DNA from: Lachnospiraceae bacterium
GTDB taxonomy: Bacteria > Bacillota > Clostridia > Lachnospirales > Lachnospiraceae
NCBI GenBank assembly: GCA_029067205.1
Contig: JAIEEY010000382.1
Span: 1-34,933, forward strand
Length of the DNA stretch: 34,933 bases
Direction: 5' to 3'
A program made the translations under genes and the position numbers. The notes under the pieces were generated by a model. It ran no database searches and was not told the origin of the DNA. It saw only the letters and a list, made by a program, of their open reading frames with translations. Shown one piece after another: positions 397 to 16,929 of this stretch. Positions within the stretch are counted from its first letter, which is position 1. Each line of letters begins with the position of its first letter.

Positions 397-1980
397 TTAT
401 GAAAACTGCCCTATAATCTCTTTAGCAGTTACAAATCTTGGCTTCTTTGGATTGCAAATGCTATGGTGATTAACATCACTATCCATTTTTGTTTTATTGC
501 TAATAAATTTTTCCTCTATTTCAACATAGTCATAATCCCACACTGATCCTTCTGATGATAAATCAACAGTAATCAACTCATCTGCCTCAAAAATTGGACT
601 GACTAATTCTGCATTATTATTTATTCCTCTGGTTATATTCTCTACTGCAATTTCGCTATTCTTTCCCTCGATTGCAGTTAGAAACGCATTATTATTTTGA
701 TTATTAACAATAACTTTCGTCTTATCATTTGCATTTATAAAATCAATATTTGAAACATTTTTTAATATTTCAAAAGCAGATTCCTGCATTCCCTGTGTTC
801 TTAACAATTTCATAAGACAATCCCGATCATCAATACTTTTATCGCAATCAGGATTATAATGAAAACACATTCTAACAAATTCTTCATCCGATAAATTTAC
901 TTTTTCGTACTCATCTTTATATATTTTGCATTCGTAGTTATTTGTTTTTTCACACTGATGCTTGCATACCGTTCTACAATATTGAGATAGAATTTCTTCA
1001 TATCCTCTACGCAATGCCAAAATATTAGCTTCCCGCTCATATATGGAAATACTTAAATCCAGAATATCAAACAAATCTCCAAACGAAATCTCTGCCTTAA
1101 TAATCCCGCCCTTTTGTATTGCATTATGCCTTTGCAAAACATGATTTCTCATATAATGCAACAATCGATCTGCTATATACTCATATTGCCCTTTGGAAAT
1201 ATATTTATCATTATTTTTATATCGTCTTACCTGCTCAACAATCTTATTGAAAAGTTCTTTTCCCTCACAATACAATTTCTTGCTATCATATGGAAACAAC
1301 ATAACCTTTTCATCTATATAATCAATTGCCAATTTGTTTTCTAAATATTCCAATAATTCTTTTAGCTTATCCTTTACTAGATCATACTTCTTATCATTAC
1401 ATGATTTAACTACCCCATCGATCAACTTTTTATAATAAGTTCGATTTAATTTTATAGGTTCATTCTTCATTATTCCACCTATTTTGTTATAAAAATTCTC
1501 TCTTTCATTCTCTTCAATATAATTGCCAATAAACACTTTGATACTGTTATAAAAATCATTTATACATTTTGCCCAACTTGACAATTGTTGATCGATCGTA
1601 TTATTGTCTTCCTTCACTCGGCTGCTGATATGTAAAAATGCCTCTGGGTTCCCTAAGCTTTTCATTTTCCAAAAGCCTTTTTCGAGCATTAATTGAATTA
1701 ATGGGTTCCTATAATCACAAATGCTGTTATCTTTCTGATTTTTTACTTGATGAATTGAAAGATATTGTTTTTGTTTTCCATCGTCTTTTACAACAGCTAT
1801 GTCTTCGCTCTTTTCTACTTCCAACCAGTATTCTGACTTGATTACCTCTTTCGACAGCCCATTCTCTATAAGATCACAAATTTTACATACTGCCAAATAA
1901 ATTGCAACTTCACCTTGATATATAAACCCACTCCATGTTGGTGTAGCGTCATGAATAAAGATATTTTCATCTTTTGCCAA
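397..1980 (-). CDS. ABC-three-component (ABC-3C) system protein with N-terminal restriction-endonuclease-like domain
   Basis: A 527-residue protein. The N-terminus reads ATPTWSGFIYQGEVAIYLAV (residues 12-31). It is followed by E54/E56, E59-D60 (SEDIAVV) and HQVKNQ (Q78, K80), an E...ED...QxK pattern of the PD-(D/E)XK nuclease superfamily as found in the CTD-bearing proteins of ABC-3C conflict systems. A Cys-rich stretch near residues 340-400 (several C and H residues around CRTVCKHQC and CDKSIDDRDC) may bind metal. The C-terminal third should be the domain that couples to the ABC ATPase. Translation must start at TTG 1978-1980, because there is no in-frame ATG for about 100 codons; AAGGAG lies about 11 bases upstream. 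The gene is AT-rich like its neighbours. The next gene fits the middle component. By family knowledge such systems sense invading nucleoprotein and degrade nucleic acid. Confident in the family, less so in the chemistry. Confidence 0.75.
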   Translation of the reverse strand: MAKDENIFIHDATPTWSGFIYQGEVAIYLAVCKICDLIENGLSKEVIKSEYWLEVEKSEDIAVVKDDGKQKQYLSIHQVKNQKDNSICDYRNPLIQLMLEKGFWKMKSLGNPEAFLHISSRVKEDNNTIDQQLSSWAKCINDFYNSIKVFIGNYIEENERENFYNKIGGIMKNEPIKLNRTYYKKLIDGVVKSCNDKKYDLVKDKLKELLEYLENKLAIDYIDEKVMLFPYDSKKLYCEGKELFNKIVEQVRRYKNNDKYISKGQYEYIADRLLHYMRNHVLQRHNAIQKGGIIKAEISFGDLFDILDLSISIYEREANILALRRGYEEILSQYCRTVCKHQCEKTNNYECKIYKDEYEKVNLSDEEFVRMCFHYNPDCDKSIDDRDCLMKLLRTQGMQESAFEILKNVSNIDFINANDKTKVIVNNQNNNAFLTAIEGKNSEIAVENITRGINNNAELVSPIFEADELITVDLSSEGSVWDYDYVEIEEKFISNKTKMDSDVNHHSICNPKKPRFVTAKEIIGQFS

Positions 1981-2039
1981 CCTTATCTCATCTCCTTAGT
2001 TTTACATTTACCACTTTAAAAACTTTACTAATTTTCTGC

Positions 2040-2067
2040 CTTATCCAACATAAAAAACATTTGTCAA
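2040..2067 (-). promoter_or_regulatory. Possible promoter for the ABC-3C genes
   Basis: On the minus strand TTGACA (2062-2067) is followed after 16 bases by GATAAG (2040-2045). The -35 is perfect and the -10 matches four of six bases. It lies in the 157-base gap between the nuclease-like gene and the ABC-3C gene, so the ABC-3C module may be transcribed on its own as well as with the genes upstream. Confidence 0.35.
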
Positions 2068-2137
2068 ATCTGGCTATGACTCTCCAATTTTGCCCATTTT
2101 GTCATTGAAGAGCCTCTTAATCGCAAAAGTATTATAA

Positions 2138-2836
2138 TCATTTCTCTATTGCTTTTTCTTTTAAATCTTCTAATAAAAACCGAGAAAAAATATTATCCTT
2201 TTTTCTAACATATTTATTATGATTCTTTTTATATTTATCAATTAGTACAGATGTGTGTATATATTTCATATTATAGGTACATTCACTAGATCTTGTTGCA
2301 GGAACAACTTCGTTCAGATTACTGTCACTTATTGCTAATAATCCAATACCCGTTTTTCTTAACAGAGACAGATTGACAAGTTTGATATTGTCCACTGGCA
2401 ATGCTAAATATGAATAATCTGAAAATAACAAATATCTCTGTGCCTGAATTAATCCATTTTTCCAATCACTTATCTTTGCCTCAACCGCAACTGTAATCCC
2501 TAACTGTACATTTCTAATACTATTCGTAACTCTGACCACCTCTTTGTTGAGTGCAACTAAATTCATACCAGCCAATTGCAAAACATATTTTTTTATTCTT
2601 TCGATGGTAAATAAAAATTTTTCTTTTATTTCTTTTAATGTAGTTTTCTTTTTTATATCAATAAAATCCCAAATAGAAAATAAATAATAATCATCCAAAC
2701 ATTTCATTCTCCTATTTCCCCCTAAGTTAAATGATATATCTGGAATGCCAATACCCATTCTGATTTCATTCGCATAACATATTCCATGACAATATAAATA
2801 TTTGTTCATAGAATTAACAATCTCTGCTTCTAACAT
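2138..2836 (-). CDS. PD-(D/E)XK nuclease-like protein overlapping the kinase gene
   Basis: A 232-residue protein read from ATG 2836, which has AGAGG eight bases upstream. An ATG 42 bases earlier has no ribosome binding site. Candidate nuclease residues are D33 (in GIGIPDISF) and E119-A-K121 (in VAVEAKISDWKNG), followed by a QAQRY helix and a hydrophobic strand (YSYLALP). This D...ExK plus Q-rich helix layout is typical of restriction-endonuclease folds. A lysine-rich helical insertion (residues 62-85) separates the two motifs. The start overlaps the end of the kinase gene by seven bases, so the two are probably translationally coupled and work together. The basic C-terminus (KYKKNHNKYVRKK) could contact nucleic acid. 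I do not recognise a named family. Nuclease activity is inferred from the motif pattern only. Confidence 0.6.
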   Translation of the reverse strand: MLEAEIVNSMNKYLYCHGICYANEIRMGIGIPDISFNLGGNRRMKCLDDYYLFSIWDFIDIKKKTTLKEIKEKFLFTIERIKKYVLQLAGMNLVALNKEVVRVTNSIRNVQLGITVAVEAKISDWKNGLIQAQRYLLFSDYSYLALPVDNIKLVNLSLLRKTGIGLLAISDSNLNEVVPATRSSECTYNMKYIHTSVLIDKYKKNHNKYVRKKDNIFSRFLLEDLKEKAIEK

Positions 2837-4887
2837 TCTTCCATCCTCTTTTGCAATCTTTCTATTACTTCTAACCATGTTTTTAGAAATTTGTAATCAT
2901 CATCTTTAAAAATCGGTTTCAGATTTTTGTAATAATTTATTGCATTTTTAACACGTTCCTTTACATAATCTGCTCTCTCATCCACAGTTGAGATACTCCT
3001 GAGCAACTGTATCTCTTCGTTCCTTCGATACAGGAAATGTCTCTTTGTCAACTGATCATTCATAAGTAATGCTGGATCAATTCCATTACAATAAGGACAA
3101 TGGCATATTATATCCTTACCAACTTCGGAATGCAATAATTGTTGTATTCTAATTGGATTTTTTCGGTCAACCGATACCGTTTTTAAAAGCTCTGGCATAT
3201 AATATCTAATAGGCATATTAAATGGTTTTTCGCTGGCATCCTTATATAAATCTTCATAAAATGATTCAAACCTTGCTACCCCTGATTCAAACGCATATAA
3301 ACCAAACGCAAGAAGTATAAGCCCAAATGTTCCTATTCTTCCAGCTATAACAGGCTTATTTGTCGATTTTTGTAAATCAAGCAGTGCAGTCGCATAATTA
3401 TATAGTTGTGATACGTTAGAATTTTCATTAATACAATCAACATATATCCAATACATATCACAATTCAATCCAGATAACACATTCAAAAAATACTCTCGTT
3501 CTTTTCTATCTGTAAGAATATCTGCTTTGATGCAAAAACCTCCTACTAATTTCCCATCGAATTTTAATAAATCCAAATAAGATTTTGTTTCTTCTAGTAA
3601 CTTTACATCCAGTGAAAACCAATTTTCATTTATATCCATCTTGATTTTTACCATATTTGAATTATTACTCATATGAAATGGAGCGACAATATTTTTTATA
3701 CCATGTTTTAATTGTTCATCAACAACCTTCTTTACATATTCTTTTTTAGTCTCATAATCCTCTAAATCTTCCAATTGTAATCGTTCCAATTGCTTTGGTG
3801 CATAGGGCAACATTGCAAGTCCTTTAACTTCTGCATATGTGTCATATGCCAATCGCATAGTTGCCGGATCTATGATAATATTAATATTATTGCTTTTCAC
3901 AAACTTTAATAAATTCTTTTGTCTGTCTTGATGATTAATTGGGAAAATTACATTCTCCACCATAAACCCATCTTTATAAAACTGTTCAAATACAGACTTA
4001 TCATCAAATAACCTTACGTAAAAAGAGGGCATAAACTGTTTTGCAATATTCTTTGCTGCAACATTATCTTTTTTGATGTATTCTCTAATATCTTGTATAT
4101 TGTTCGGTCGCTTATAATTTTCTTTTTGCAACAATGTCATGACCAAGTTATCAATACCGTTGTTTATCGTTGGAATAAAAAATCTAATTGAGATTGGCGG
4201 TTCGACTTTAATCTTGTAATATAATTCCTCCCTTGAACTCACTGCTCCATAAGGAGTATTAGCAGTTAATAATTTAAATAATATTACTCCCATTGCATAA
4301 TAATCAGAACGATAATCTATATTTTTGCTATCGCTTATTTGTTCCGGTGACATATACAATGGGGTTCCTAATTGATCACCTGTATTTGTAATAGATGTAT
4401 AATCTATTAATTTAGACAGACCGAAATCTAGTATCTTAATATTGCCATTTTCTAACAGATAAATATTAGCAGGTTTTAAATCTCTATGAATTAAATTCTG
4501 TGAATGGATTGACTCTATACCATATAAAATCTGACTAAAAATTCTTATAGCCTCTTCCATTTCAACCTTTCTGCTTCTCATAACAGTTTCCAAATCCTGT
4601 CCTTCGACAAAATCCATAACCACATATATGTATTCCCATCCATTATCTACAAATGTACCATCATCTATATAGCCTGCAACATAATCGCTGTGAACCTTTT
4701 TAAGTGCCTCGATTTCCCTTGTAATTCTATTATCTTCACCCTTTGCAAATTCGGAAAAGACATAATCCATTGCAAAAATCTTCATAGCGTATGTACAATT
4801 ATCTTTTTGACATTTGTAAACAGTTCCAAAAGAACCTTTACCTTTAAATTCTATTATCTCATAACCATTAATCTCTTTACCAATCAT
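2830..4887 (-). CDS. Ser/Thr protein kinase fused to a TIM-barrel-like domain with CxCxxC...H motif
   Basis: A 685-residue protein starting at ATG 4887, chosen because GAGG lies nine bases upstream; an ATG at 4902 lacks a good site. Residues 1-270 form a complete Hanks-type kinase: glycine loop GKGSFG (16-21), K36, HRDLKPAN (134-141), DFG (154-156) and a GTPLYMSPEQ activation segment, so it should be active. Residues of about 290-600 alternate short hydrophobic strands (NIIIDP, NIVAPFH, MYWIYVD, PVIAGRIGTFG) with helices, suggesting a TIM barrel. A CxCxxC (595-600) with H617 follows, an arrangement like the zinc site of tRNA-guanine transglycosylases, although no canonical nucleophilic Asp is evident. 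No membrane segment is seen, so it is cytoplasmic. It sits between pglX and a nuclease-like gene in a BREX island. BREX type 2 also uses a kinase (PglW), but this one does not look like PglW. The kinase call is firm; the C-terminal call is a hypothesis. Confidence 0.85.
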   Translation of the reverse strand: MIGKEINGYEIIEFKGKGSFGTVYKCQKDNCTYAMKIFAMDYVFSEFAKGEDNRITREIEALKKVHSDYVAGYIDDGTFVDNGWEYIYVVMDFVEGQDLETVMRSRKVEMEEAIRIFSQILYGIESIHSQNLIHRDLKPANIYLLENGNIKILDFGLSKLIDYTSITNTGDQLGTPLYMSPEQISDSKNIDYRSDYYAMGVILFKLLTANTPYGAVSSREELYYKIKVEPPISIRFFIPTINNGIDNLVMTLLQKENYKRPNNIQDIREYIKKDNVAAKNIAKQFMPSFYVRLFDDKSVFEQFYKDGFMVENVIFPINHQDRQKNLLKFVKSNNINIIIDPATMRLAYDTYAEVKGLAMLPYAPKQLERLQLEDLEDYETKKEYVKKVVDEQLKHGIKNIVAPFHMSNNSNMVKIKMDINENWFSLDVKLLEETKSYLDLLKFDGKLVGGFCIKADILTDRKEREYFLNVLSGLNCDMYWIYVDCINENSNVSQLYNYATALLDLQKSTNKPVIAGRIGTFGLILLAFGLYAFESGVARFESFYEDLYKDASEKPFNMPIRYYMPELLKTVSVDRKNPIRIQQLLHSEVGKDIICHCPYCNGIDPALLMNDQLTKRHFLYRRNEEIQLLRSISTVDERADYVKERVKNAINYYKNLKPIFKDDDYKFLKTWLEVIERLQKRMEEC

Positions 4888-4938
4888 ACTTTCTTCCCTC
4901 ATTAACTTTAAGTGTCCAATGTAGACTTCCTCTAAATT

Positions 4939-7900
4939 CTATATCTTTGCCAGTACTTGATACTTCTTTCCATCTTTTGCAGTCTGCACTTTCTCATAGT
5001 TTACCTTAACTCCATCATCCAAATCAAGTTCTATCCGTGATAGTGCCAAATGTCCAATCTTTTCATCGTAATCATGACACTCTTTTAGCTGTCTCTGCAA
5101 CTTTTCTTTTCGCTTTGCTGCAGCTCCCACTTCCCGACTATTTGTGCTGTGATCTATCATATCCTGCATACGACCAATTTCAGACTCATAAATCCTCTGC
5201 ATGCGGTGCAGATAATCAACACGCAAATTTCCAACAGTATCCGCATTATACCGATGTAGATAAATCAGTGCCTTAAACCCGTTCTGTTTTCCACTGTCAA
5301 AGAGCCAGTATATAGGTCTCTTGCCAGAACCAGTAACAGAATATGTCGTGCAGTGATCCTTAAAGAAATCATTTACAAAATAGTTACGTATGATTTCTCT
5401 TGATGTGTCACCTTTGTTTTTGAGTGCTGATGCTATAAAGTCCAGGTTCCGCTCTAAAGTGTCTTTCCCATATACCTTCTTTAACCAACTACAGAATAGA
5501 CCAAGAATATCATCCTCAAAGTATTCCTCATCTGTAATGGGAATGATGTTATCCTTGTCAGGAATAAATGTATTGTATCTACTATTGTCCCAATCACCAC
5601 CAGCATACGCAAGTCCCTCAACATCAAGGGAATAACGTCCAAACATACAGCCAACTGCATAGGAGATCAGGCTCTTGATATCTCTCTGTAAATCAGCCTT
5701 GCGAACTGTAACATCCTTATCCTCAACTTCTGGTGTTAGTTCACCCTGCAAGCCATATATGTCAATGAAGATACGGTTTAGTTCTTCCTCGTTTATTTTT
5801 AATTGATTGAAACGAATATCACATTCATTTTCCCACCAGAAAAATGAATCCTCTATACGATAGAACCACTCTCCTTTATTCTCCCTCTCTTTTGATTTTT
5901 TCTTCAACCTAATCAATGGATGCTGTTCAAAATTCCATGAAGTTTCAAAGGAGTCCCAGTCTTCTCTTGAAATTAAAATACACTCGTTTACTCTATTTGT
6001 AACACTTTCAAATATTTCGTCAGAAATAAGAACGGGAATTCTTGCCAAGTCTCCCGATTGTAGTGTTGCAGTAGGATTCAACATCTCTGCAAATTTTTGA
6101 ATAACCTTTGAATTAAGAACACCCAATGTGTAAGGAATATCTTTGCTTTTAGGAAAGCAAACACCTGACGCACTTTCAAAGAAATAACCTTTTGGCATTA
6201 TGCGGAAAGAAGAAGCGCCAATAGTAACACGTGACCAAGAAACGCCTTCTTCAAAGAGTTTTTCTGCATTTCGTATCGTTTGACGCCCTTCTGCCTTTAT
6301 ATTACGTCCATCATCTTCCCAATCAATGTAATAATCTTGATTACCATACCATTTACGAAACGCCCCACCTTTTAAACATTTAAACCACTTTTTCTTATTA
6401 TGTATTACTTCAAACCATAGTCGTAAAAACAGATCATTGTTTCCTGTAGTAGACCCCTGTTTGGGAGGAGCAAACGTCCCTAATGGTTTTCCATTAACGA
6501 ACGCTTCTATTACTGCAGGACTTGCCCAGTATGCAATAGGACTACCCGGAATCTTTCTAAATCCTTCTTGTTTTGCAAAGTAAATTCCTTTACCTTGCAG
6601 GAACACTTTTTCACGTTCGTCCACACTTTGTACATCGCCTTGCTTAATAAACAGACGACGATAATGCCCTTTATAATCATGAATACTATCGCGCATAATT
6701 ATAAAGGATGTAGTACCAAAGTCTGAGCCAAAAATCCCTCTTCCGGGTTGTATCAAGCTAATAATAGTACTAAAATCCATAAGGTTTTCACGCAATCGCT
6801 CATAAGTAGATAAGAACATCCATACTGGAATGTTAATCATTGTCATTAACCCATTAAGTTTGAGCATTAAAAGGGTTTTCTCCATACAGACTGTACTCAT
6901 ATCTGCCTTACTGTTAGGATAGTACTTTTTTACAAAATCATTTATCGGCTCATCCAGTTTACTCGCATTTGCATACGGCGGATTCGTTGCAACCACTTCA
7001 TACTTCCTTGCCATCACCTCGCCAATATCAATCAGCATTTGCAATCTCTTCTGTGTCTGCTCAATCCCTACCGCATCCAACGTCATCTGCCCACCAACAC
7101 CAGCACTTTCTGCAAACCGCCTCAGCAAATCCCAATCATAATCCGCAACATTCAAAATGGAACCATACTCCTTGGCATCCTTAAATGTATCAAGCAAGCC
7201 TCCAATCTGGTTCAATGCATCATTTTTCTCCACCTCATTGAAACCCACACCAAAGTATGTGAGCTGCTGCCTATTGATATGATTACTCTCCTGTATGGAA
7301 TACACATGACAAACAGTGTCTGCTGAAAGAATCCGGCGATTATACTGTCTTGCTTTCATCATTACAGCGAAATACGCCATCTGATATGCCCTATCGTCGA
7401 TATCCAAACCATAGAGATTATTTTCAAGGATGTTCTTGGCAGCATCCCTCTGGGAATATCCGACAGACTCATAGATCTGCATCAACACGTCAAATGCATA
7501 GACAAGAATATGTCCACTGCCCATACAAGGATCGATAAAATGGATATCCTCTGGATTCAGTTTCGCATATTCTTTATGTATTTCATCAAGTTTTACCTGA
7601 ACTTCTGGCTCCTGCTCTGCCTCCTCCAGATAATATTTCCACTTGGATTTCAGCAGATCATTCGGATGCCCTTCTACCCACAGACGTCCAAGACTATTTT
7701 CCACCATATAACGCACAATCCAATCCGGTGTAAAAAGTTGTGTTACCGCAGGAATCTCTTCTTTTGTAATCTTTCCGTTTTTTGAAAATGCTTCATTTTT
7801 CGGCTCGGTATTGTAATACTGATACAGCCAGCCAATAATCTCTACCTGACCACCTTTTTCGATGTTGAAATCATCCTCCGAAATATCGTTGACCAGATGA

Positions 7901-8517
7901 TAAACGACTCCTTCCTTATCAATCACAGAGATATTTAACAAAAGTTCCGTATAATCCGCTGTTTTTTCAAAAAGCGCCGGAAGTTTTTCATTTAATGCGT
8001 TGCATTGTTTGATAAACAGCAAGCGAAAGCACTCATCCAGATTATTTTCATTCTTTAATCTGACAATTTCCTGCTTTTCCTTATCTGTAAAAATCAAATC
8101 GGCATCAAACGGGGTAGTCACAAGATCTGGTTCCATCTTACCACTATCAGAGGACAGTACACGGATATGAGACGGAAGATAGTCGTTAATCTCCATAAAT
8201 CGAACTGCAATCAGACGGTTAAACCAAGTGTATGCAACACCTTCTGTAATGTACTTATAAGCAGTTTTATAGTTTGTCTCATTTGCTTTCTGATTGATGA
8301 CATCTACAAGACTTTTACGCTGTCTGACAGCCTCTCCCGTAATAGCATACGGCTGTGCAGTTCCAATATCATAGAACTCCGTTTCTTTCGTCGACTGCGG
8401 CAATGCAGGACGTATCCCATCAGCTGTTATGCCCATAAGTCCTGCTCTGTACTGTATATCTGCAATCAGTTTGTTTCTCGCCCAGATTGCAAAGTTCTTG
8501 ATTGCGGTTTTATTCAT
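4939..8517 (-). CDS. pglX: BREX-1 adenine-specific DNA methyltransferase PglX
   Basis: A 1192-residue protein that transfers methyl groups to adenine N6 in the host BREX recognition sequence, marking self DNA. The start ATG 8517 (MNKTAIKNFAIWARNKL) has AAGGAG eight bases upstream; the frame is open further upstream but overlaps the preceding gene without a binding site. SAM-binding motif I is DPCMGSGH (329-336) and the catalytic motif IV is NPPY (512-515). The N-terminal part (FNRLIAVRFMEIN, and LYQYYN before FTPDWIVRYMVENSLG) is the usual PglX pre-methyltransferase region, and the long C-terminal half would hold target recognition. Length fits the family (about 1150-1250). It lies 23 bases after the PtuB-like gene instead of directly after brxC. 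No frameshift is seen, so it should be functional. Confidence 0.95.
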   Translation of the reverse strand: MNKTAIKNFAIWARNKLIADIQYRAGLMGITADGIRPALPQSTKETEFYDIGTAQPYAITGEAVRQRKSLVDVINQKANETNYKTAYKYITEGVAYTWFNRLIAVRFMEINDYLPSHIRVLSSDSGKMEPDLVTTPFDADLIFTDKEKQEIVRLKNENNLDECFRLLFIKQCNALNEKLPALFEKTADYTELLLNISVIDKEGVVYHLVNDISEDDFNIEKGGQVEIIGWLYQYYNTEPKNEAFSKNGKITKEEIPAVTQLFTPDWIVRYMVENSLGRLWVEGHPNDLLKSKWKYYLEEAEQEPEVQVKLDEIHKEYAKLNPEDIHFIDPCMGSGHILVYAFDVLMQIYESVGYSQRDAAKNILENNLYGLDIDDRAYQMAYFAVMMKARQYNRRILSADTVCHVYSIQESNHINRQQLTYFGVGFNEVEKNDALNQIGGLLDTFKDAKEYGSILNVADYDWDLLRRFAESAGVGGQMTLDAVGIEQTQKRLQMLIDIGEVMARKYEVVATNPPYANASKLDEPINDFVKKYYPNSKADMSTVCMEKTLLMLKLNGLMTMINIPVWMFLSTYERLRENLMDFSTIISLIQPGRGIFGSDFGTTSFIIMRDSIHDYKGHYRRLFIKQGDVQSVDEREKVFLQGKGIYFAKQEGFRKIPGSPIAYWASPAVIEAFVNGKPLGTFAPPKQGSTTGNNDLFLRLWFEVIHNKKKWFKCLKGGAFRKWYGNQDYYIDWEDDGRNIKAEGRQTIRNAEKLFEEGVSWSRVTIGASSFRIMPKGYFFESASGVCFPKSKDIPYTLGVLNSKVIQKFAEMLNPTATLQSGDLARIPVLISDEIFESVTNRVNECILISREDWDSFETSWNFEQHPLIRLKKKSKERENKGEWFYRIEDSFFWWENECDIRFNQLKINEEELNRIFIDIYGLQGELTPEVEDKDVTVRKADLQRDIKSLISYAVGCMFGRYSLDVEGLAYAGGDWDNSRYNTFIPDKDNIIPITDEEYFEDDILGLFCSWLKKVYGKDTLERNLDFIASALKNKGDTSREIIRNYFVNDFFKDHCTTYSVTGSGKRPIYWLFDSGKQNGFKALIYLHRYNADTVGNLRVDYLHRMQRIYESEIGRMQDMIDHSTNSREVGAAAKRKEKLQRQLKECHDYDEKIGHLALSRIELDLDDGVKVNYEKVQTAKDGKKYQVLAKI

Positions 8518-8540
8518 ATTCTTACTCCTTTGTATTGGTT

Positions 8541-8903
8541 CTATGCCAATGCCATTACCATTGTTTGCAAATACCAAATTAAAATTCCTACATACGGCGT
8601 TTTGGGATCTCTTTCCTCCCTGAAAGCATTCAACATTTCCGTACAATAACTATGTAAATGTTCTTCTTCTACCTTCCCAATGTCATCGATCAATGCATCT
8701 AAAGCTGCTCTCCGCTCTGCGATCAAAGGTGCAGATACACAGTTTAGATTTAATGTATTCGCTAAATCAAACTGCACATCTGAATCCGTTGCGTCAATTC
8801 TGCCATCTAACGTATAAAAAATTGTCGAAAGTCCGCTTAATATGGGATCTTCTCTCAATTCTTTTAATCCCTCGGGCTCGATTCCTTTTTTTACCTCAAT
8901 CAT
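8541..8903 (-). CDS. PtuB-like partner protein apparently lacking its HNH core
   Basis: A 120-residue protein whose ATG follows the stop of the ATPase gene with no gap (TAA-ATG), so the two are coupled. The N-terminus MIEVKKGIEPEGLKELRE resembles the start of PtuB/TIGR02646-type HNH proteins. The remainder (STIFYTLDGRIDATD, then LNLNC and LIAERRAALDAL, and PYVGILIWYL near the end) resembles the portion that normally follows the HNH domain. The expected central block with the CxxC and H-N-H residues, roughly 80-120 residues, is absent. This looks like an in-frame internal deletion between about residues 20 and 26. Only two cysteines remain. Full-length relatives cut nucleic acid with PtuA; this protein could at most be a structural partner or a remnant. 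The family assignment is from memory of the consensus and needs alignment. Confidence 0.6.
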   Translation of the reverse strand: MIEVKKGIEPEGLKELREDPILSGLSTIFYTLDGRIDATDSDVQFDLANTLNLNCVSAPLIAERRAALDALIDDIGKVEEEHLHSYCTEMLNAFREERDPKTPYVGILIWYLQTMVMALA

Positions 8904-10214
8904 TTATTTCTGTCCTCCCCGGATTCTCTCCAGCTTTAGTTTTACTCTATCGGCGGCAACTTCTTTATCATGGTAATTCCTCTGCCCATCAATTTCATCC
9001 AAAACCTTTTCTGCCACATCGTATTGCCCATCATTCAGCAGCAAATAGAATTGACTGAAAAGATTAGCAATGACAGGATCGCGATCCGATACACCCATAA
9101 TATCTTTCAAAATGGAATTTACATCATTTCCAAAAATTTCGGCACCTGCATCCAGCACCTCATAATCCTTTAATATAACAAGGTTCTCGCTCTTTGCACT
9201 ACTGATGACTGCCGGCGCATGAGTTGTGACAATAAACTGAACTCTCGGAAAAATCTCCTGCAAATCTCCAAGAATGCGATGCTGCCATGCAGGGTGCAGA
9301 TGCAAATCCACTTCATCGATCAAAATGACCCCATTCGTTTCATCAATTACAGCTGTTTTTAGTTGCGGATTTAATACAGCCATCCGATAGGCAATATCCG
9401 CAATTAGACTAATAGTGCTTTTATATCCATCACTCATCTGTGACAATGGAATGCTCATACGAACTCCATCCTCATTAACATAATGGCATTCAATCTCATT
9501 CGTATCCAGATTATAATCAAAAGCCACACCATGATACCCTGTAATGCGTTCATAACAAATCGCCATTGCTCTACAAACAACTGCTAGTTCCATGAACTCT
9601 CCCAATCCTTCTGCACTCTTTTGTATTCTTTGGATTGTCTTCTTTTTAAACCAACTCATCATCAGTTTAATGTTCGCCGTTCCATCCAGACTGTCAATAT
9701 AGCCATTTGTTTTTGTGTTATCCTTAAAAGTATCTGTTTTCTTTTCTCTATGGTAGTCCCACAAACGTCCAGTGCCATAATATGCAATGATAGGAAGTAC
9801 CAGTGCTGCATCCCCATTCCGTAGACGTTCTTGGTAGCCCTTTGCAATATCCGTCATCGCTTTCGCATCTTTCCTGACTGTAATGCCGTTTTCTCCATTT
9901 AAAGCTCTTTTCCATGTGATCGTTTGTCCATCTATATCACCCCTAGCAGTTATTTCAACCGGATACTGCGGTTGGACATCTTCAGACTCTCCCATCAAAT
10001 ATGCTTTTAATCTGACATCCTTTTTATAGATGCTTAGACCAACCTGTCCATCCAAACCTGTAAACATTGTTCCCAGAGAGACAGCCAACCCTTCAAGAAT
10101 AGAAGTTTTTCCGGAACCATTATCCCCGACAATTACCGTTAGTTTCTCATGGAAATTTACCTCGATATCTTCAAAGCATCTATAATTTTTTAGCGCTATC
10201 CACTTAATAATCAT
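8904..10214 (-). CDS. AAA/ABC-type ATPase, PtuA-like (Septu/retron-effector family)
   Basis: A 436-residue ATPase with RecF/SMC-like order: Walker A GDNGSGKT (30-37), a signature-like LSQMSDGYKS near residue 270, and Walker B VILIDEVDLHLHPAWQ near residue 305, followed by an IVTTHAPAVI switch segment. The start was set at ATG 10214 (MIIKWIALKNYRCF), which has GGAG nine bases upstream; an ATG five codons earlier is less well served. A small PtuB-like gene follows directly. The pair is placed between brxC and pglX, an interruption of the usual BREX order. In the Septu system PtuA binds or senses nucleotides and works with an HNH nuclease. OLD-type or other overcoming-lysogeny ATPases are alternatives, but no Toprim domain is present. 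Confidence 0.8.
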   Translation of the reverse strand: MIIKWIALKNYRCFEDIEVNFHEKLTVIVGDNGSGKTSILEGLAVSLGTMFTGLDGQVGLSIYKKDVRLKAYLMGESEDVQPQYPVEITARGDIDGQTITWKRALNGENGITVRKDAKAMTDIAKGYQERLRNGDAALVLPIIAYYGTGRLWDYHREKKTDTFKDNTKTNGYIDSLDGTANIKLMMSWFKKKTIQRIQKSAEGLGEFMELAVVCRAMAICYERITGYHGVAFDYNLDTNEIECHYVNEDGVRMSIPLSQMSDGYKSTISLIADIAYRMAVLNPQLKTAVIDETNGVILIDEVDLHLHPAWQHRILGDLQEIFPRVQFIVTTHAPAVISSAKSENLVILKDYEVLDAGAEIFGNDVNSILKDIMGVSDRDPVIANLFSQFYLLLNDGQYDVAEKVLDEIDGQRNYHDKEVAADRVKLKLERIRGGQK

Positions 10215-10304
10215 TTTATTTCTCTCCATTTCACTGCTTCTATCCTTATTTTTACCAAATACTCCTTTATAAACAATCTAAATGAAACATTCCTGATTTC
10301 CCTA

Positions 10305-13300
10305 TCAAAACTCCACATTTACAATATCATTTCCATCCAGTTCTTCCAGCAATGACTTTCGAAGCTGATTTACACATTTCTCAACATCCTCCGCGCTCTC
10401 TATCCGCCACGATGATGTATGAGTAATATTCTTTATGGTGACATTCTTTGTTTTCTTAATCGGAACTTTTACAACAATGTCAACAGACCCGCCATCCGGA
10501 GTCCTCTTTTTTTCTTCCTCTTCTGCCCTTTTTCTTATCATTTCGGCGTCCATGGCATCCATTTCATTCAAAAGACGGATTTTCAACGCCTCTGCTTTAT
10601 CTGCATAGCTTCTGAGGACTGAAACATTGTTGCACGTTCCGGCTCCGTCGCTGATTTCAAGGAAGAGTTCAATATACTTCTGTCTCTTCTCTGTTGCATA
10701 AGCTTTCGCATCAACGACCTCCACGACTCTGTCTTTTGCCGCTTCAATAGACTGCATTACCGGCGCCAAGGCTGATTCCAACACTTTTGAATATGCGTCC
10801 ATAAATTTCTTACGAAGGTCAGGAAGCTGCGGGATATCCCTATAGGGCATATCCTTTTTCACGATTGACCTCATTTGCTCAACAATTCTTTCAAGCTCTT
10901 CATCTACAATATAAGTCTTACTATCATCATAAATCGCAAGCATATCGAATGCTCTCATAAAAATCTGCTGCTGCTCCCCGCCAAAGAAAGACTTGACAGG
11001 CTCATAGTCTTCAGCATAGTCAAGAAAATCATCCTGATGGTGTGAAACATACTCATAAAATTCTTTTGGTTCAGAAATCTGCACCACAGCAAGCAATAAT
11101 TTCTTACCCTCATCGATCACTTTCTTTCCCGGATATGTATATTGCTGGTAATTGCTTTCCAACTTTTCCATTTCAAATATACGTTTCTGTGCATAATTCT
11201 GAAAATTGCGCATGCCAGTATCTTCATCTTCTGATACCAGAGATGTTCCAAACAATTCCTTTATGACTTTCTGTACCGCTTTCTTATCCTTTTCAGATAC
11301 CCGGATTCTCACTTCCATCAAAAGCTTATCTACATACTGTTTCTTGGTAATATAATCTACAATCTCATCACCAGATTTATTCATCCGTGTCACGATTGCC
11401 CCATTTACGGTAAAAGTCAAGTCACCACGTCCAAACAGTCTTGCTATAAGCCAATATATATCATCCTCGACAAACCCGTAAGGCGCACGCATAAAGCGGT
11501 CTTTTATTGTTTTCATGGAAGTCTTGATATGAATATCCGTATTTCCCTTGATATAATTCAACACATCATCAAGCGCATGGACGTTTGGTTCTGTCGCTTC
11601 ATCAAGGTTCAAACACATCTGATTGTTCGGCTGAAACATCTTACGAACAGACACTTCATCCATTGCAACATCGATATAAGACAACTTGTGGTAAACGGTC
11701 TGCACAAGACGACCGATCGCTTCATTGATGCGCCCTGTCACTTCCTTTGCAGACAGATGGGCTGCGTCACCATTTACATAGATTGTTGCTTCTTTCAATC
11801 CTTCTGTCAGATAAAGCTTTGCATTCGCATTGCGTTCTCGCATTTCCACGCGCTTTGCTTCTTTGATTGTCTCATATTTCGTCAGCTGTGTTGAAGTACC
11901 CAGCCGTAGGAACTTCTCAATTTTCAGATAAGTCATCAACTCATCAAGAAACGCAGAATCATTTGGCAAAAGCACAAGTACTTCTCTCCCTGTCCCTGAC
12001 ATCATGCGAAGAGTTGCATCATCATTGCCGCCCTCGTACCACGGGGTCAGAATGCGCAGTCCTATATCATAGTTCTGGTTGGATTTATATGGTCTGTCGT
12101 CCACCGTTTGATTAAATGGGAACGTATATCGACCATGAAACACAGCATTACCAGCAGGTGCAGGATAACGATACCGCTTATCAGAAAAAATATCCTCAAA
12201 AATCATTTCTGATACTTTGTTAATAACCTCTGCCATCTCCACATTCTGGTTGTTAATCTCACGGTTGATTTCCTGTTCTTCATCTGTAAGGAACACATAG
12301 ATACTTCCATTTTTTTGAATAAGCATCTGCTGTTGAAGCGTTTTTAATGCTGCCTCAACTTTATCCTTCAAAACGATACGATCCTCATCAATATTGCTGA
12401 TCATAAGGCTTGTAATATTATCCATATTTGCCTCAATCTCAAGTATGTACTTAATCATAAAGAGAGTTTTCAATACATTGATTGCAAATACATCAGAAGT
12501 CTTTTTCTCTGAATTGATCTTGCTGTTATCATAGGCGCGAATAATAACACTTCTATGACTATGATCAAGAAAGTTCTCCAAAGCGTCATAGAAGCGATAA
12601 AACGGCACGATTGCGCCCTCGGACTCGTCCATGATTTTAACAGCTGATTCCTTAAAGAGCGCAAGCATGGAACGCTCTCCCTCAGACAAATGCTTACCAG
12701 ATGCGCCATGGGTGCGAATGGAAGTCAACACACTCGCAAGAAGATTAAACTGATATGGTACGAACGGATAACATAACGCAAAATCATATTCATCTGTATA
12801 AATTTTCTTTTCCACACCATCGTTGAATACAATAAGGTTCTTGATAATCGTTGCTTTCTGCTCATAAAGAAGTCTCAATGTCTGCGCACCGGTATCATTC
12901 TTCTCCAATATCCTCTTTTTAATAACTTCATCCACATTCGCGGAAGACAGTGCAAGTCTTGTCGCAAATCGCCCCTGAATCTTAGAGAAGTCATTACCCT
13001 TCACTTTCATAATGGAATCTACATCCTGCTGACTTGTCACTACAACCCATGCTTTCCCCTTACATTCCTTGGAAAGTTCCTCTCTTACAGTCTGAAGATT
13101 CAGCATCAGGTTAGAATCATCACCAATATACTGCCCCACTTCATCCACCATGAATACAACATGATGATTCTCACCTTTCTGATCAATATATGCTTTTACA
13201 CGCTTTGCAAAATCCTCAATGCTGATCCGATAAGTTTCCGCTGCCTTCTCACACCAATTCCTTGCAGCCACCTCACTCATAAACTCAATCTTTACAAGTG

Positions 13301-13934
13301 CTTCGACCACATCATCCTGAATAAAATCAAATTTGTGACGTGACTTCTCCCACTCAGAGCCGTATACATCCGCAAACGCTTCCCTAAATGCCTCATATTT
13401 ACCTACATCGTTGAGCTGGCTTTCCAAATCTGCAAGATGCGGCATGCTTCCACAAAAACCTCTCATCTCATTAAATACTTTTAAGAACACATTGACAATT
13501 GCATCCTTATTCTGCTTACTATTGCTGTCACTTTTGGAATCAATGTTAAAAAGCACCACATCCGTCGGTGTCTCCGCAGCTAATTTCATGTCCGCCAAAA
13601 CGAATGCATCCGATATTTTGTGATCCTCTTCAAAGAAATCAATTGCCCTCTTTCCATCAATTTCCTTATTCGCTAGAATATAGGACAGTATTTTCAAAAA
13701 GTGGGATTTACCACTTCCAAAGAAACCAGATATCCATACACCTATTTCATTTGTATTTCCTACAATACCCTTCTTATATGCTTCAAAAAACTCTGCAAAA
13801 TGCTTTTGCAGTTCTCTGGTAACCACATATTCTTCAAGTTCCTGCAAGACTCCGGTTTCCTCGCCCTGACCTACAATAATGACACCCTGAATCTCCCGGT
13901 CTATCGGTTTGGAAAACATTTCCTTAATCTGCAT
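10305..13934 (-). CDS. brxC: BREX system P-loop ATPase BrxC
   Basis: A 1209-residue ATPase of the BrxC/PglY family (DUF6079-like), essential in BREX and acting in the cytoplasm with PglX, PglZ and BrxB. The N-terminus MQIKEMFSKPIDREIQGVII is characteristic. Walker A is GFFGSGKS (70-77) and Walker B is VVFMVDEVGQYIG near residue 265. The long C-terminal half contains helical and coiled-coil-like stretches, including a basic segment KRAEEEEKKR near residue 1140. AGGAGG lies seven bases before the ATG, and that Shine-Dalgarno overlaps the brxB stop codon region, so translation is tightly linked. Length matches BREX type 1 BrxC (about 1200). Followed by a 90-base gap before the embedded ATPase gene. 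Confidence 0.95.
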   Translation of the reverse strand: MQIKEMFSKPIDREIQGVIIVGQGEETGVLQELEEYVVTRELQKHFAEFFEAYKKGIVGNTNEIGVWISGFFGSGKSHFLKILSYILANKEIDGKRAIDFFEEDHKISDAFVLADMKLAAETPTDVVLFNIDSKSDSNSKQNKDAIVNVFLKVFNEMRGFCGSMPHLADLESQLNDVGKYEAFREAFADVYGSEWEKSRHKFDFIQDDVVEALVKIEFMSEVAARNWCEKAAETYRISIEDFAKRVKAYIDQKGENHHVVFMVDEVGQYIGDDSNLMLNLQTVREELSKECKGKAWVVVTSQQDVDSIMKVKGNDFSKIQGRFATRLALSSANVDEVIKKRILEKNDTGAQTLRLLYEQKATIIKNLIVFNDGVEKKIYTDEYDFALCYPFVPYQFNLLASVLTSIRTHGASGKHLSEGERSMLALFKESAVKIMDESEGAIVPFYRFYDALENFLDHSHRSVIIRAYDNSKINSEKKTSDVFAINVLKTLFMIKYILEIEANMDNITSLMISNIDEDRIVLKDKVEAALKTLQQQMLIQKNGSIYVFLTDEEQEINREINNQNVEMAEVINKVSEMIFEDIFSDKRYRYPAPAGNAVFHGRYTFPFNQTVDDRPYKSNQNYDIGLRILTPWYEGGNDDATLRMMSGTGREVLVLLPNDSAFLDELMTYLKIEKFLRLGTSTQLTKYETIKEAKRVEMRERNANAKLYLTEGLKEATIYVNGDAAHLSAKEVTGRINEAIGRLVQTVYHKLSYIDVAMDEVSVRKMFQPNNQMCLNLDEATEPNVHALDDVLNYIKGNTDIHIKTSMKTIKDRFMRAPYGFVEDDIYWLIARLFGRGDLTFTVNGAIVTRMNKSGDEIVDYITKKQYVDKLLMEVRIRVSEKDKKAVQKVIKELFGTSLVSEDEDTGMRNFQNYAQKRIFEMEKLESNYQQYTYPGKKVIDEGKKLLLAVVQISEPKEFYEYVSHHQDDFLDYAEDYEPVKSFFGGEQQQIFMRAFDMLAIYDDSKTYIVDEELERIVEQMRSIVKKDMPYRDIPQLPDLRKKFMDAYSKVLESALAPVMQSIEAAKDRVVEVVDAKAYATEKRQKYIELFLEISDGAGTCNNVSVLRSYADKAEALKIRLLNEMDAMDAEMIRKRAEEEEKKRTPDGGSVDIVVKVPIKKTKNVTIKNITHTSSWRIESAEDVEKCVNQLRKSLLEELDGNDIVNVEF

Positions 13935-13945
13935 AATGAATCCTC

Positions 13946-14524
13946 CTACTTTACCAGCTTAAAAGCCCTGTAATAATTGTCATCTTTTATCTCGTTAAAC
14001 AGAATCAATTCCTGCTCGTTATAGATTCCTGGAAAGAACATCACAACCGGAACCCTCACAAACGCCTGATGTAAATTATTGAGCACTTTATGGGAACGCA
14101 AAATAGGAAAGCATTTTCCAACTCCCGTCAGAAAAACCACTGCATTTTCTGGTGTGTTATCCTTGATATACTGCACGATATAACTGTCATCATCATTGAT
14201 TTTCATTGCGTTACTGACCGCTTTGGCAATGCGTTCCAACCCCTTTTTCTTCTCGAACTTATAGCAATCCTCCAAGAAATTATTTTCATCAAGAAAGTCA
14301 ATGATGATATCATACAGATCAAACACCACCAAATCAAATCCCTCACTGCCCTTCGTATTCTTGTTCTGCATATACTTGATTCGCTCCCGGACCTCCAACT
14401 CTCTCTCCGGTGGATAATCGAATATCCAATAATTCACTTCATTTGCCCGGCCACTGCTTTGCCTAAATGCAGGTTTACGGATTGCTTCCTCCATTTTGTC
14501 GAGACGTTCTTTTAAATCAGCCAT
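13946..14524 (-). CDS. brxB: BREX protein BrxB (DUF1788)
   Basis: A 192-residue protein of the DUF1788 family, a small cytoplasmic BREX component of unknown biochemical role. The YWIFDYPPERELEVRERI segment (about residues 32-49) and the later VVFLTGVGKCFPILRSHKVL and MFFPGIYNEQELILF segments are typical. Start and stop codons of brxB and brxA overlap by one base (TAATG), an arrangement for translational coupling. Length agrees with the family (about 190-200). Confidence 0.93.
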   Translation of the reverse strand: MADLKERLDKMEEAIRKPAFRQSSGRANEVNYWIFDYPPERELEVRERIKYMQNKNTKGSEGFDLVVFDLYDIIIDFLDENNFLEDCYKFEKKKGLERIAKAVSNAMKINDDDSYIVQYIKDNTPENAVVFLTGVGKCFPILRSHKVLNNLHQAFVRVPVVMFFPGIYNEQELILFNEIKDDNYYRAFKLVK

Positions 14525-15132
14525 TATCTGATTCCCTCCAATGCTTTGGCTATCTGTCCATATCCATAATCTTCTAACCAGTGTTTCAATGCCGGATCGA
14601 GAATTGGCTTTAATAGATTGCGTTCTGTCCCCCTTGTCTTATCATCAAGAAGACCAGCCTCATAAAGCTGTGACTTATAACTCCTGCCAAGTCTCTGCAG
14701 TGTCTGATCTGTCCACTTTGCAACTATTTCATCCTGCGCCTGCTTATTCTTAAAAAAAATGCGAATGTCTGCATCCGCAAGCACACCCGTTCCAATAATC
14801 ATCTTTTCCCTGACAACCTCATACATAAAGTCGAAAAACAATGTATCATGGGCAAAGCTGCCCGTCAGTGCATATAATTTCTGTGTTGCTATATCACTAT
14901 CCATAAAAAGCGGATAAAAGCTCGAATCAAGATTCTTTATTCTCGCAGTTAAAGTGGATTGAATCATTGCTGCCCTTGCTGGTGTTGATGCGCCAAATAT
15001 ATTTTCCTGGGCGCTGAGTGCTTTTATTTCATCAAACGTTCTTCCCTGCGCCAGAAGCCAAACCTCCTTGCGAAACTCCATAAACCACAAGGCAAACTTT
15101 ACGGCTCCTGCACTGTATTTATTTCTGTTCAA
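14524..15132 (-). CDS. brxA: BREX protein BrxA (DUF1819)
   Basis: A 202-residue protein of the DUF1819/BrxA inner-membrane-annotated family, now known as a small helical DNA-binding-type BREX component. Recognisable segments are KYSAGAVKFALWFMEFRKEV near the N-terminus, RIKNLDSSFYPLFMDSDI, and the FDFMYEVVREK motif in mid-protein. The start is TTG (15130-15132), with GGGG nine bases upstream overlapping the end of the regulator gene. No hydrophobic segment long enough to span a membrane is seen. First BREX core gene of the operon, directly after the small XRE gene and overlapping brxB. Confidence 0.92.
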   Translation of the reverse strand: MNRNKYSAGAVKFALWFMEFRKEVWLLAQGRTFDEIKALSAQENIFGASTPARAAMIQSTLTARIKNLDSSFYPLFMDSDIATQKLYALTGSFAHDTLFFDFMYEVVREKMIIGTGVLADADIRIFFKNKQAQDEIVAKWTDQTLQRLGRSYKSQLYEAGLLDDKTRGTERNLLKPILDPALKHWLEDYGYGQIAKALEGIR

Positions 15133-15136
15133 TTAA

Positions 15137-15322
15137 CTATTCCCCGTCTTTCTCTGGAACCATTTCCATAATGTCCCCAACATCACACTGCAAATATTCA
15201 CAGATACGTTTGAGTACATCTATAGAGACATCTTCATTTCTACCCATCTTTGCCAAAGTGTTTGGACTCATCCTGGCTGCCTCAAATAAATCCATCTTCT
15301 TCATGTCCTTGTGAATCAACAA
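15137..15322 (-). CDS. Small XRE-type HTH regulator, 5' end uncertain or lost
   Basis: A 61-residue Cro/CI-type DNA-binding protein: KDMKKMDLFEAARMSPNTLA followed by KMGRNEDVSIDVLKRICEYL forms the helix-turn-helix. It is probably the island's autoregulator because it is the first gene of the BREX transcript. Relatives usually begin with about ten more residues (a YNKLWKLLIDKD-like start). Here the upstream in-frame codons still read IYNKQWKL, but an in-frame TGA sits at 15344-15346 and no ATG or GTG start precedes it. The only starts left are TTG codons at 15322 or 15319 with no clear Shine-Dalgarno. The lost start coincides with the edge of a hairpin (15341-15371). The gene may be poorly translated or broken at its 5' end. 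Confidence 0.7.
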   Translation of the reverse strand: MLIHKDMKKMDLFEAARMSPNTLAKMGRNEDVSIDVLKRICEYLQCDVGDIMEMVPEKDGE

Positions 15323-15340
15323 TTTCCATTGCTTATTATA

Positions 15341-15371
15341 TATTCACGGTAAATAAAATTTGCCGTGAGTA
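15341..15371. repeat. Hairpin H1 at the 5' edge of the regulator gene
   Basis: Inverted repeat with 14-base arms (15341-15354 and 15358-15371) around a 3-base loop; all pairs form if two G-U pairs are allowed on one strand. It overlaps the sequence where the regulator's original start would be expected. Part of a run of four hairpins that fills the leader of the defence operon. Confidence 0.6.
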
Positions 15372-15378
15372 TTGCGCC

Positions 15379-15432
15379 AGCCGCAGCCGCGAAGCGGCAT
15401 ATTTCCTTATGCGCATTGCGTATTGGCGGCTG
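15379..15432. repeat. Hairpin H2 with nested GC stem
   Basis: Outer arms CAGCCGC (15379-15385) and GCGGCTG (15426-15432) enclose a small stem GCCGC-GAA-GCGGC (15386-15398). The segment is much more GC-rich than the genes on either side. Confidence 0.55.
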
Positions 15433-15444
15433 TGTGCATCACTT

Positions 15445-15480
15445 TATACTGAGCGGTCAGTCTTTTTGACCGCCAGTATA
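15445..15480. repeat. Hairpin H3 in the defence-operon leader
   Basis: Arms TATACTG-a-GCGGTCA (15445-15459) and TGACCGC-CAGTATA (15467-15480) form a 14-base-pair stem with a single bulged A and a 7-base loop. It is not followed by a clear T-run on either strand, so it is not an obvious intrinsic terminator. Confidence 0.6.
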
Positions 15481-15484
15481 ACTT

Positions 15485-15541
15485 AGGAACTGTTCAGAAA
15501 TAACATGTGCAGCTTGCGCAGAATATTTCTGAACAGTTCCT
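15485..15541. repeat. Perfect 17-bp inverted repeat H4, member of a dispersed palindromic family
   Basis: AGGAACTGTTCAGAAAT (15485-15501) and its exact complement (15525-15541) flank a 23-base loop containing a nested TGTGC-AGCTT-GCGCA. A related palindrome with a similar loop occurs at 23331-23380 in front of ldh. The pair suggests a short mobile or REP-like palindromic element. Confidence 0.65.
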
Positions 15542-15617
15542 TACTTTCATAATGTAATTCCTCACTTGCTCTTTGGCTTTAAAACTCATAACAGACTGTT
15601 ACGATAATATGTCTAAA

Positions 15618-15646
15618 ATTATATCACTGATATATAACACATTCAA
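15618..15646 (-). promoter_or_regulatory. Probable promoter of the BREX/defence operon
   Basis: On the minus strand TTGAAT (15641-15646) is separated by 17 bases from a perfect TATAAT (15618-15623). Transcription would begin near 15610 and pass through the four hairpins before the XRE gene. The 407-base gap between the regulator and mutY holds this promoter, a second one just upstream and the hairpin cluster. Confidence 0.6.
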
Positions 15647-15663
15647 TAATTTAATTATACATA

Positions 15664-15692
15664 TCTATAAATTGATTATATCTGAATCTCAA
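15664..15692 (-). promoter_or_regulatory. Second possible promoter of the defence operon
   Basis: TTGAGA (15687-15692), 17 bases, then TATAGA (15664-15669) on the minus strand, within a very AT-rich stretch. It could equally be a chance match in AT-rich DNA, but it lies in tandem with the stronger site at 15618-15646. Confidence 0.4.
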
Positions 15693-15729
15693 AATTAACC
15701 GATAGGAGCTGTAGGAAAATATATCCCCC

Positions 15730-16797: not shown

Positions 16798-16929
16798 GAC
16801 CTTTTTCTCCATTTCTCCATAATTCCATCTTGTCCCGTTTTTACAACCCTTTTCAAATTGTTTATCCTTTAAAATGGATATTGTTAGGTTGTAAAAGTGA
16901 TACAGTTTCACAGAAAGAAGGTTTTAGTT

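Follow-up and report, generated by a model that had tools for sequence, protein, structure and literature searches.

DpdA, which makes the 7-deazaguanine DNA modification, is a barrel of the tRNA-guanine transglycosylase (TGT) type tied to DNA conflict, and Stk2 is a kinase that serves as a defence protein. In this study, we analysed a stretch of 34,933 nucleotides from a Lachnospiraceae bacterium (GCA_029067205.1, contig JAIEEY010000382.1; hereafter the window), in which one gene joins a Ser/Thr kinase (K) to a predicted TGT-fold domain (T) and overlaps a second gene for a predicted nuclease (N). Two described systems resemble parts of this arrangement. In PMC12839542, the BRC systems, which are related to BREX, contain a TGT homologue found together with HerA/FtsK, PglZ and DUF6079, and DNA modification is its proposed role. 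The available part of PMC12799240 describes a two-gene unit of a nuclease and its activator, the nuclease-protease pairs, that has been taken up by unrelated immune systems.

Our preferred reading, to which we give about an even chance, is that the locus is the fused form of a modular three-part anti-invader system made of K, N and a T domain without the TGT nucleophile. The original prediction, made from the letters of the window alone, had described a kinase fused to a TIM-barrel-like domain with a transglycosylase-type zinc motif; it overlooked both the adjoining nuclease gene and the broader family in which the three parts are separate genes.

Results

We first give the kinase part of the fusion. 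The open reading frame (ORF) remains open to position 4902 (2830-4902, minus strand, 690 aa), and Pfam Pkinase covers residues 15-267 of this 690-aa form (E 3e-48). In 43 aligned kinase rows, representing 38 distinct loci and five duplicates, the HRD Asp with its Lys and Asn, the DFG Asp and the APE Glu were kept in every row, and the VAIK Lys in 42. The glycine loop was looser, with GxGx(F/Y/A)G in 28 of 43 rows, the window kinase among them. The VAIK Lys, HRD and DFG of a Hanks-type kinase are thus all found in the window family. The ORF is real, and K is, on its sequence, a Ser/Thr kinase with catalytic residues, in agreement with the complete Hanks-type kinase predicted originally. C-terminal to the kinase, the Pfam, PADLOC and NCBIfam listings for the 690-aa ORF contained no named domain.

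We built an alignment of 30 T domains, the window included (A3; an A3 number plus 281 gives the number in the 685-aa protein), and ran AlphaFold2 on it. L036, whose gene is split in two ORFs, L037, cut by the contig end, and L028, a near copy of L027, were left out of A3. The model (mean predicted local distance difference test, pLDDT, 88.7; predicted template modelling score, pTM, 0.89) showed a (β/α)8 barrel with eight barrel strands, followed by three long C-terminal helices. The alternating strands and helices of the original prediction were recovered, over about 400 residues and not about 300. A Foldseek search of the model against 350,542 PDB chains returned TGTs at all of ranks 1-10 (E 1.7e-5 to 1.2e-4, query-normalised TM 0.49-0.54, identity 10-12%). 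Galactanases (rank 11, E 1.2e-4) and aldolases came right behind, indicating that TGT leads and that other barrels are not far off. The GRIGTFGLILLAFGLYAFESG segment, originally assigned to the second ribose-contact region of TGTs, spans β7-β8 of the predicted barrel, roughly where it had been placed. By its model, T is a TGT-fold barrel, and the fold call of the original prediction is right. That prediction would have been refuted by another fold or by Cys and His residues that vary among homologues; since a TIM barrel with TGTs nearest was predicted and the Cys and His are conserved, neither objection applies. Of the checks it proposed, structure prediction with Foldseek agreed with it, whereas hidden Markov model comparison gave no relevant Pfam match and a TGT alignment of low probability, and the TGT profile PF01702 in particular did not match T.

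A search of BFVD with T gave six matches at E below 0.001, each to a phage protein that is uncharacterised or unnamed, and a Mycobacterium phage TGT at rank 17 (E 0.03). As a separate observation, the sixth-best viral match (A0A8S5QQE4) and a 7-cyano-7-deazaguanine synthase at rank 28 (A0A8S5QS09) are both proteins of one phage, Myoviridae sp. ctgXL3.

We then located the TGT active-site places on T by strand order. In TGT, D102 follows β3 and the nucleophile D280 lies at the end of β8. By strand order, D59 (A3) ends β3 at the D102 place, and residue 253 (A3) ends β8 at the D280 place. We compared 47 T sequences, a set that excludes L102 and L119 (short T) and L118 (a weak match in which inspection showed no T). 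The results showed that D59 was Asp in 47/47, while the nucleophile place was never Asp (0/47; S 17, E 10, A 9, T 7, I 2, G 2). H336 was His in 44/47, even where the Cys are lost, H124 was His in 31/47, and Tyr67 was kept in 45/47 (A3 numbers). With no Asp at that place in any sequence, an active chemistry of the DpdA type is unlikely, and on the model T probably cannot perform the covalent TGT step. This strengthens the earlier suggestion that the domain may sense and not catalyse. The proposed DpdA-like role in DNA modification was not supported, and identity with DpdA was rejected: T lacks the nucleophile Asp, and its profile match to phage DpdA was no better than that to TGT. The hhalign comparison of T with phage DpdA gave P 0.21; this failure says little, since the known pair TGT and DpdA reached only 0.057 by the same weak method.

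The zinc-type motif was found at the residues given originally, CHCPYC at 595-600 with His at 617 in the 685-aa protein. The three Cys and the His were invariant in 30/30 A3 sequences at identities down to 22%, so the motif is not due to chance. It was retained in 31/32 fused sequences. The invariant A3 columns include D59, P60, T62, L65, Y67, P122, H124 and W142 besides these four. In the 47-sequence set, the three Cys were present in 34 and absent in 13 while the Asp stayed, which places the zinc site on one side of the T tree. All 34 zinc-bearing rows lay on one side of the midpoint, among 36 rows. Two changes are required on this tree for the fused forms, L097 apart; its branches are long and its deep joins unsure. 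The spacing from the last Cys to the His was 16-17 residues in T and 25 in the compared TGT sequence.

The start codon of N at 2836 overlaps the stop codon of the kinase-T gene (2832-2830). No Pfam family matched N. Foldseek with the N model (pLDDT 93.1) gave 3dnx (SPO1766) as the best and only match below 0.001 (E 1.3e-4), with many winged helices among the weaker matches. E133, K135 and Q145 were conserved in 47/47 N sequences, E17 in 46, D47 in 45 and Y149 in 37. N thus shows D...ExK, a Glu in the first helix and a Gln after ExK, a residue set that is the PD-(D/E)xK pattern. On this basis we predict that N is a nuclease of the PD-(D/E)xK type that carries a winged helix as an insertion.

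To place the module among genomes, we scanned the genome_contigs set with T and obtained 32 loci, in Bacillota, Bacteroidota, Chlorobiota, Ignavibacteriota, Moraniibacteriota, Aminicenantes and an archaeal bin (names from record titles, mostly metagenome bins). These loci were found with T alone, and N adjoined the fused gene in 31 of the 32. The exception, L037, ends at the contig edge, and L023 and L030 are cut inside N. N was convergent to the fused gene, on the opposite strand, in L005, L035, L038 and L039. The T domain was found by protein search in 4/295 genomes of the order and the T profile in 2/398 genomes of the phylum, the own genome being counted in both. Phages and viral contigs searched for the fused gene held no relative, apart from one viral contig reached through N (L083), which ends with the disrupted remains of the fused gene and its nuclease (5240-6596).

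A wider family, in which N, K and T are separate neighbouring genes, was found in Archaea, several bacterial phyla and plasmids. Plasmid carriers of the system, fused or unfused, are Priestia, Kocuria, Polaromonas and Natribaculum. Separate N, K and T genes occur in L085, L098-L101, L119 (with a short T), L120 (a haloarchaeal plasmid), L121 (a Polaromonas plasmid), L127 and L128. The N profiles matched 14/299 genomes of the phylum, several weakly, and four viral contigs. The T profile matched 11/299, one of which (G402) failed on inspection, and 4/247 genomes of the phylum of L017, the L017 genome included. Of the 15 unfused T loci in the 47-sequence set, 13 have N as a neighbour and 10 have K; N had been the route to six of them at first, and likewise to L115 and L116. 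Counting only unfused confirmed hits from T-based searches (G326, G376, G455, G499, G504, G525, G547, G565, G848, G852 and G881), N was adjacent in 10/11, and the sole miss, G376, lies on a contig of 4,753 bases. In L115 and L116, a SIR2-like protein stands in the place of K (SIR2_2 Pfam 24.9 and 20.7 bits against a cut-off of 24.5; PADLOC SIR2 models 8e-6 and 4e-7), and the L116 protein matched a PDB sirtuin at 4.9e-4 across 48 residues.

Several members of this family have further features of their own. L085 lies on a viral contig that also encodes a primase-helicase close by (Zn_Ribbon_Prim, D5_N), an arrangement that recalls P4-type satellites; its three-gene set was matched neither in phage records, searched with the T protein, nor in E. 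coli genomes, searched with the DNA. In L121, an ORF at 7450-8523 after the N-K-T set has a marginal CARF-PD-(D/E)xK match (E 1.4e-4). In L126, a 148-aa ORF (6724-7170) occupies the kinase position between T and the convergent N. Its likeness to a PIN domain was seen by eye only, PDB and PADLOC searches gave no confirmation, and we made no use of it.

We next examined the neighbours of 34 fused loci (the window, L005 and L008-L039). A restriction-type, BREX or DISARM methyltransferase lay within 10 kb in 12/34, the window with its BREX-1 pglX being one of them, a count that is a lower bound because the neighbours were scanned in part. An MmeI-type enzyme lies directly upstream in L009, L027, L028, L030, L032 and L034, five of which are close relatives. 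In L017, the fused module is flanked by type III mod and res genes that lie a few bases away from it. N6/N4 methyltransferases are near in L005, L016 and L035, type III-like in L005 and L035, and L039 has DISARM DrmD and a PglX-similar fragment. L013 and L014 follow AbiE genes, with the AbiEi match of L013 under the Pfam cut-off. BREX was recognised at the window only (1/34, by similarity to the BREX proteins of the window, and many contigs are short), so a specific BREX link was not supported. The neighbour lists drop ORFs that overlap a longer ORF by more than 60 bases, and the L005 methyltransferase was taken from annotation.

We compared these distances with the domain density of 24 genomes; the observed numbers of loci near a methyltransferase were entered by hand. 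Ten of 24 loci were within 10 kb of PF20473/PF01555, against 0.71 expected, and 6/20 against 0.59 with the five close relatives collapsed. When the limit was set at 1 kb from the methyltransferase domain match, the count was 7/24 against 0.13, and 3/20 against 0.11 after collapsing. The window falls outside the 1-kb count, as its pglX gene is adjacent yet the domain hit is 2.4 kb off. The features of the window are given in Table 1.

Table 1. Positions of the kinase-T and nuclease genes, their domains and motifs, and the neighbouring BREX-1 genes in the window
Feature	Position	Strand	Basis
Kinase-T fusion gene	2830..4887	-	685 aa from ATG 4887; start picked from homologue starts
Hanks-type Ser/Thr kinase domain, catalytic residues present	4102..4860	-	Pfam PF00069 E 3e-48 and HRD/DFG residues
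T: predicted TGT-fold (β/α)8 barrel and C-terminal helices	2833..4044	-	AlphaFold2 pLDDT 88.7; Foldseek
Asp340 (685 numbering), end of β3, TGT D102 place	3868..3870	-	Strand order; 47/47 T sequences
Zinc-type motif C595-x-C597-x2-C600 ... H617	3037..3105	-	Conservation in A3 and fused sequences
N: partner gene, 232 aa, PD-(D/E)xK nuclease-like	2138..2836	-	Model pLDDT 93.1; Foldseek 3dnx
Predicted winged-helix insertion within N	2528..2689	-	Helix/strand pattern of model; MarR-type Foldseek matches E above 0.001
pglX, BREX-1 methyltransferase, directly upstream of kinase-T	4939..8646	-	NCBIfam NF033452 1396.8 bits, cut-off 500
brxC, brxB, brxA of the BREX-1 locus	10305..15132	-	Pfam/PADLOC/NCBIfam scans

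The BREX locus itself holds other genes. Septu-like PtuA and PtuB genes lie between brxC and pglX (window 8541-10229, minus strand), and an ABC-3C CTD1 / LmuA-like gene (window 397-1980, minus strand) follows the kinase-nuclease pair, so that the locus carries three inserted defence-type units. Elsewhere in the same genome, contig C248 (L131) encodes a BREX-type PglZ at 5058-7571 with two upstream ORFs (449 and 173 aa) that had no PADLOC match, and this contig perhaps continues the BREX locus of the window. The genome (G000; assembly 97.9% complete) was also the only one of 31 searched that lacked a canonical TGT (PF01702) match. Pfam, PADLOC and NCBIfam scans of ten window proteins (397-16911) found no Dpd or preQ0 gene among them.

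Discussion

We propose that the pocket of T, with its invariant Asp and, in this branch, its zinc site, would bind a nucleobase or nucleic acid as a signal of infection or of failure of the neighbouring restriction system. Ligand binding would release the kinase to phosphorylate proteins of the host or the phage, N, or both, and N would cut DNA. Prediction and conservation speak for the fold, the conserved motifs, the linkage of the three parts, their location close to restriction systems and the SIR2-like protein at the position of K in two loci; a role in defence, sensing by T, its ligand, the sequence of events and the activity and substrate of N are inferred. The invariant Asp without a nucleophile, the kinase with its catalytic residues, the complete nuclease motifs and the SIR2 exchange together argue that T may be the sensor, with K or SIR2 and N as the output.

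Several observations weigh against the three-part anti-invader system or its parts. The TM-scores of T against TGT are only about 0.5 at 10-12% identity, and sequence profiles of T against PDB and Pfam gave no relevant match. The hhalign comparison of A3 with 30 TGTs aligned 53 columns in the zinc region (P 0.036, probability 1.4%), although it paired the three Cys and the His with their TGT counterparts; with profile evidence this weak, the fold call rests on the structural model. The active-site places follow from strand order. The two genomes behind the SIR2 exchange belong to a single family. Among the 12 methyltransferase neighbours, two are uncertain, as the L039 fragment has no Pfam match and the L016 methyltransferase is read with stops. 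Many loci, often on short contigs, have no recognised defence gene near, and the adjacency control takes no account of defence-island clustering.

A toxin-antitoxin-like pair is the first alternative. Here N would be a toxic nuclease restrained by K-T through binding or phosphorylation, and mobile elements and restriction loci would keep the pair for stability, not immunity. The stop/start overlap of the two genes, their presence on plasmids and their strict pairing fit this idea. However, N and K-T (or T) point towards each other in L005, L035, L038, L039, L084, L085, L097, L126 and L127, an arrangement unusual for a toxin-antitoxin operon, and a SIR2-like protein can replace the kinase. We therefore regard such a pair as unlikely, though it deserves consideration.

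T could instead be a working enzyme, using the invariant Asp and near-invariant His for base exchange or removal on DNA or tRNA, as in DpdA-like marking or a glycosylase effector. Conservation of the Asp (47/47), the His (44/47, even without the Cys) and Tyr67 (45/47) is what an active site would show, and TGTs are present in the Dpd and BRC defence systems according to the available part of PMC12839542. Yet strand order puts no Asp at the nucleophile place in any of the 47 sequences, and the ten window proteins scanned (397-16911) include no preQ0 or Dpd gene. We consider an enzymatic T distinctly unlikely. A shade less probable again is a passenger of defence islands with another job, such as regulation or stress signalling. 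Several loci had no recognised defence gene within reach among the neighbours scanned, which suits a passenger, but in L017 the module is embedded in the mod-res operon, a few bases from the adjoining genes, in six loci (five close relatives) it comes immediately after MmeI-type enzymes, and its proximity to methyltransferase domains within 1 kb (7/24 against 0.13 expected; 3/20 lineages against 0.11) exceeds expectation. A BREX-specific component, equivalent to PglW with its kinase and nuclease parts divided between two genes, is largely excluded by distribution and very improbable: a kinase and a nuclease do adjoin pglX, and PglW unites nuclease and kinases in the available part of PMC12839542, but the PglW model matches the kinase domain only (43 bits against a cut-off of 990) and the window is the sole BREX locus recognised, by similarity to its own BREX proteins, among 34 fused loci, many on short contigs. 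The identity "BREX component" was rejected on these grounds.

Within the three-part anti-invader system, a more specific version would make T a pseudo-transglycosylase receptor for altered guanines, e.g. the 7-deazaguanines that shield the DNA of some phages from restriction. The module would then be a second line beside restriction systems, firing through the kinase (or SIR2) and the nuclease on phages that restriction cannot cut. We regard this version as speculative and improbable.

If the three-part system is borne out, a tRNA/DNA-base enzyme fold that has lost its nucleophile and is joined to a kinase would represent a new class of immune receptor. The module is small, with two genes in its fused form, and is found in Bacteria and Archaea. 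Given its repeated occurrence close to BREX, type IIG, type III and DISARM systems, it could account for a backup of restriction systems. Should the replacement of the kinase by a SIR2-like protein be confirmed, it would offer a direct means of distinguishing sensor from effector.

Comparison with known systems

We found no published description of a kinase-TGT fusion or of the N-K-T trio; subscription papers and supplements lie outside the literature covered, and a prior mention is possible. The available parts of PMC12839542, PMC13092281, PMC9122126 and PMC12799240 do not describe either, and neither was found in that of PMC12458937. Among the PADLOC matches listed, T or N was covered at marginal scores at most, and in the 25 kinase matches listed, out of 34, the match ends with the kinase domain.

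T resembles TGT (PF01702) in its predicted eight-stranded barrel, the Asp after β3 and the CxCx2C...H after β8, and differs in having no Asp at the nucleophile place, no PF01702 match, a fused kinase and a shorter Cys-His spacing. It differs from ten phage-type DpdA sequences, which lack CxCx2C and carry a D-S-G/S motif. PD-T4-6, MAD6 and PglW are likewise Hanks-type kinases in defence loci, but these proteins have neither T nor N. N differs from its best Foldseek match, 3dnx (SPO1766), by the inserted winged helix. The BRC systems share a TGT homologue within a BREX-related system, whereas the available part of PMC12839542 mentions no kinase fusion. In the available part of PMC12799240, the two-gene unit likewise pairs a nuclease with its activator, and activation of N by K is our proposal for the present module. 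Those pairs consist of a protease and a metallo-β-lactamase (MBL) nuclease, whereas the module described here combines a kinase, a predicted TGT-fold barrel and a predicted PD-(D/E)xK nuclease.

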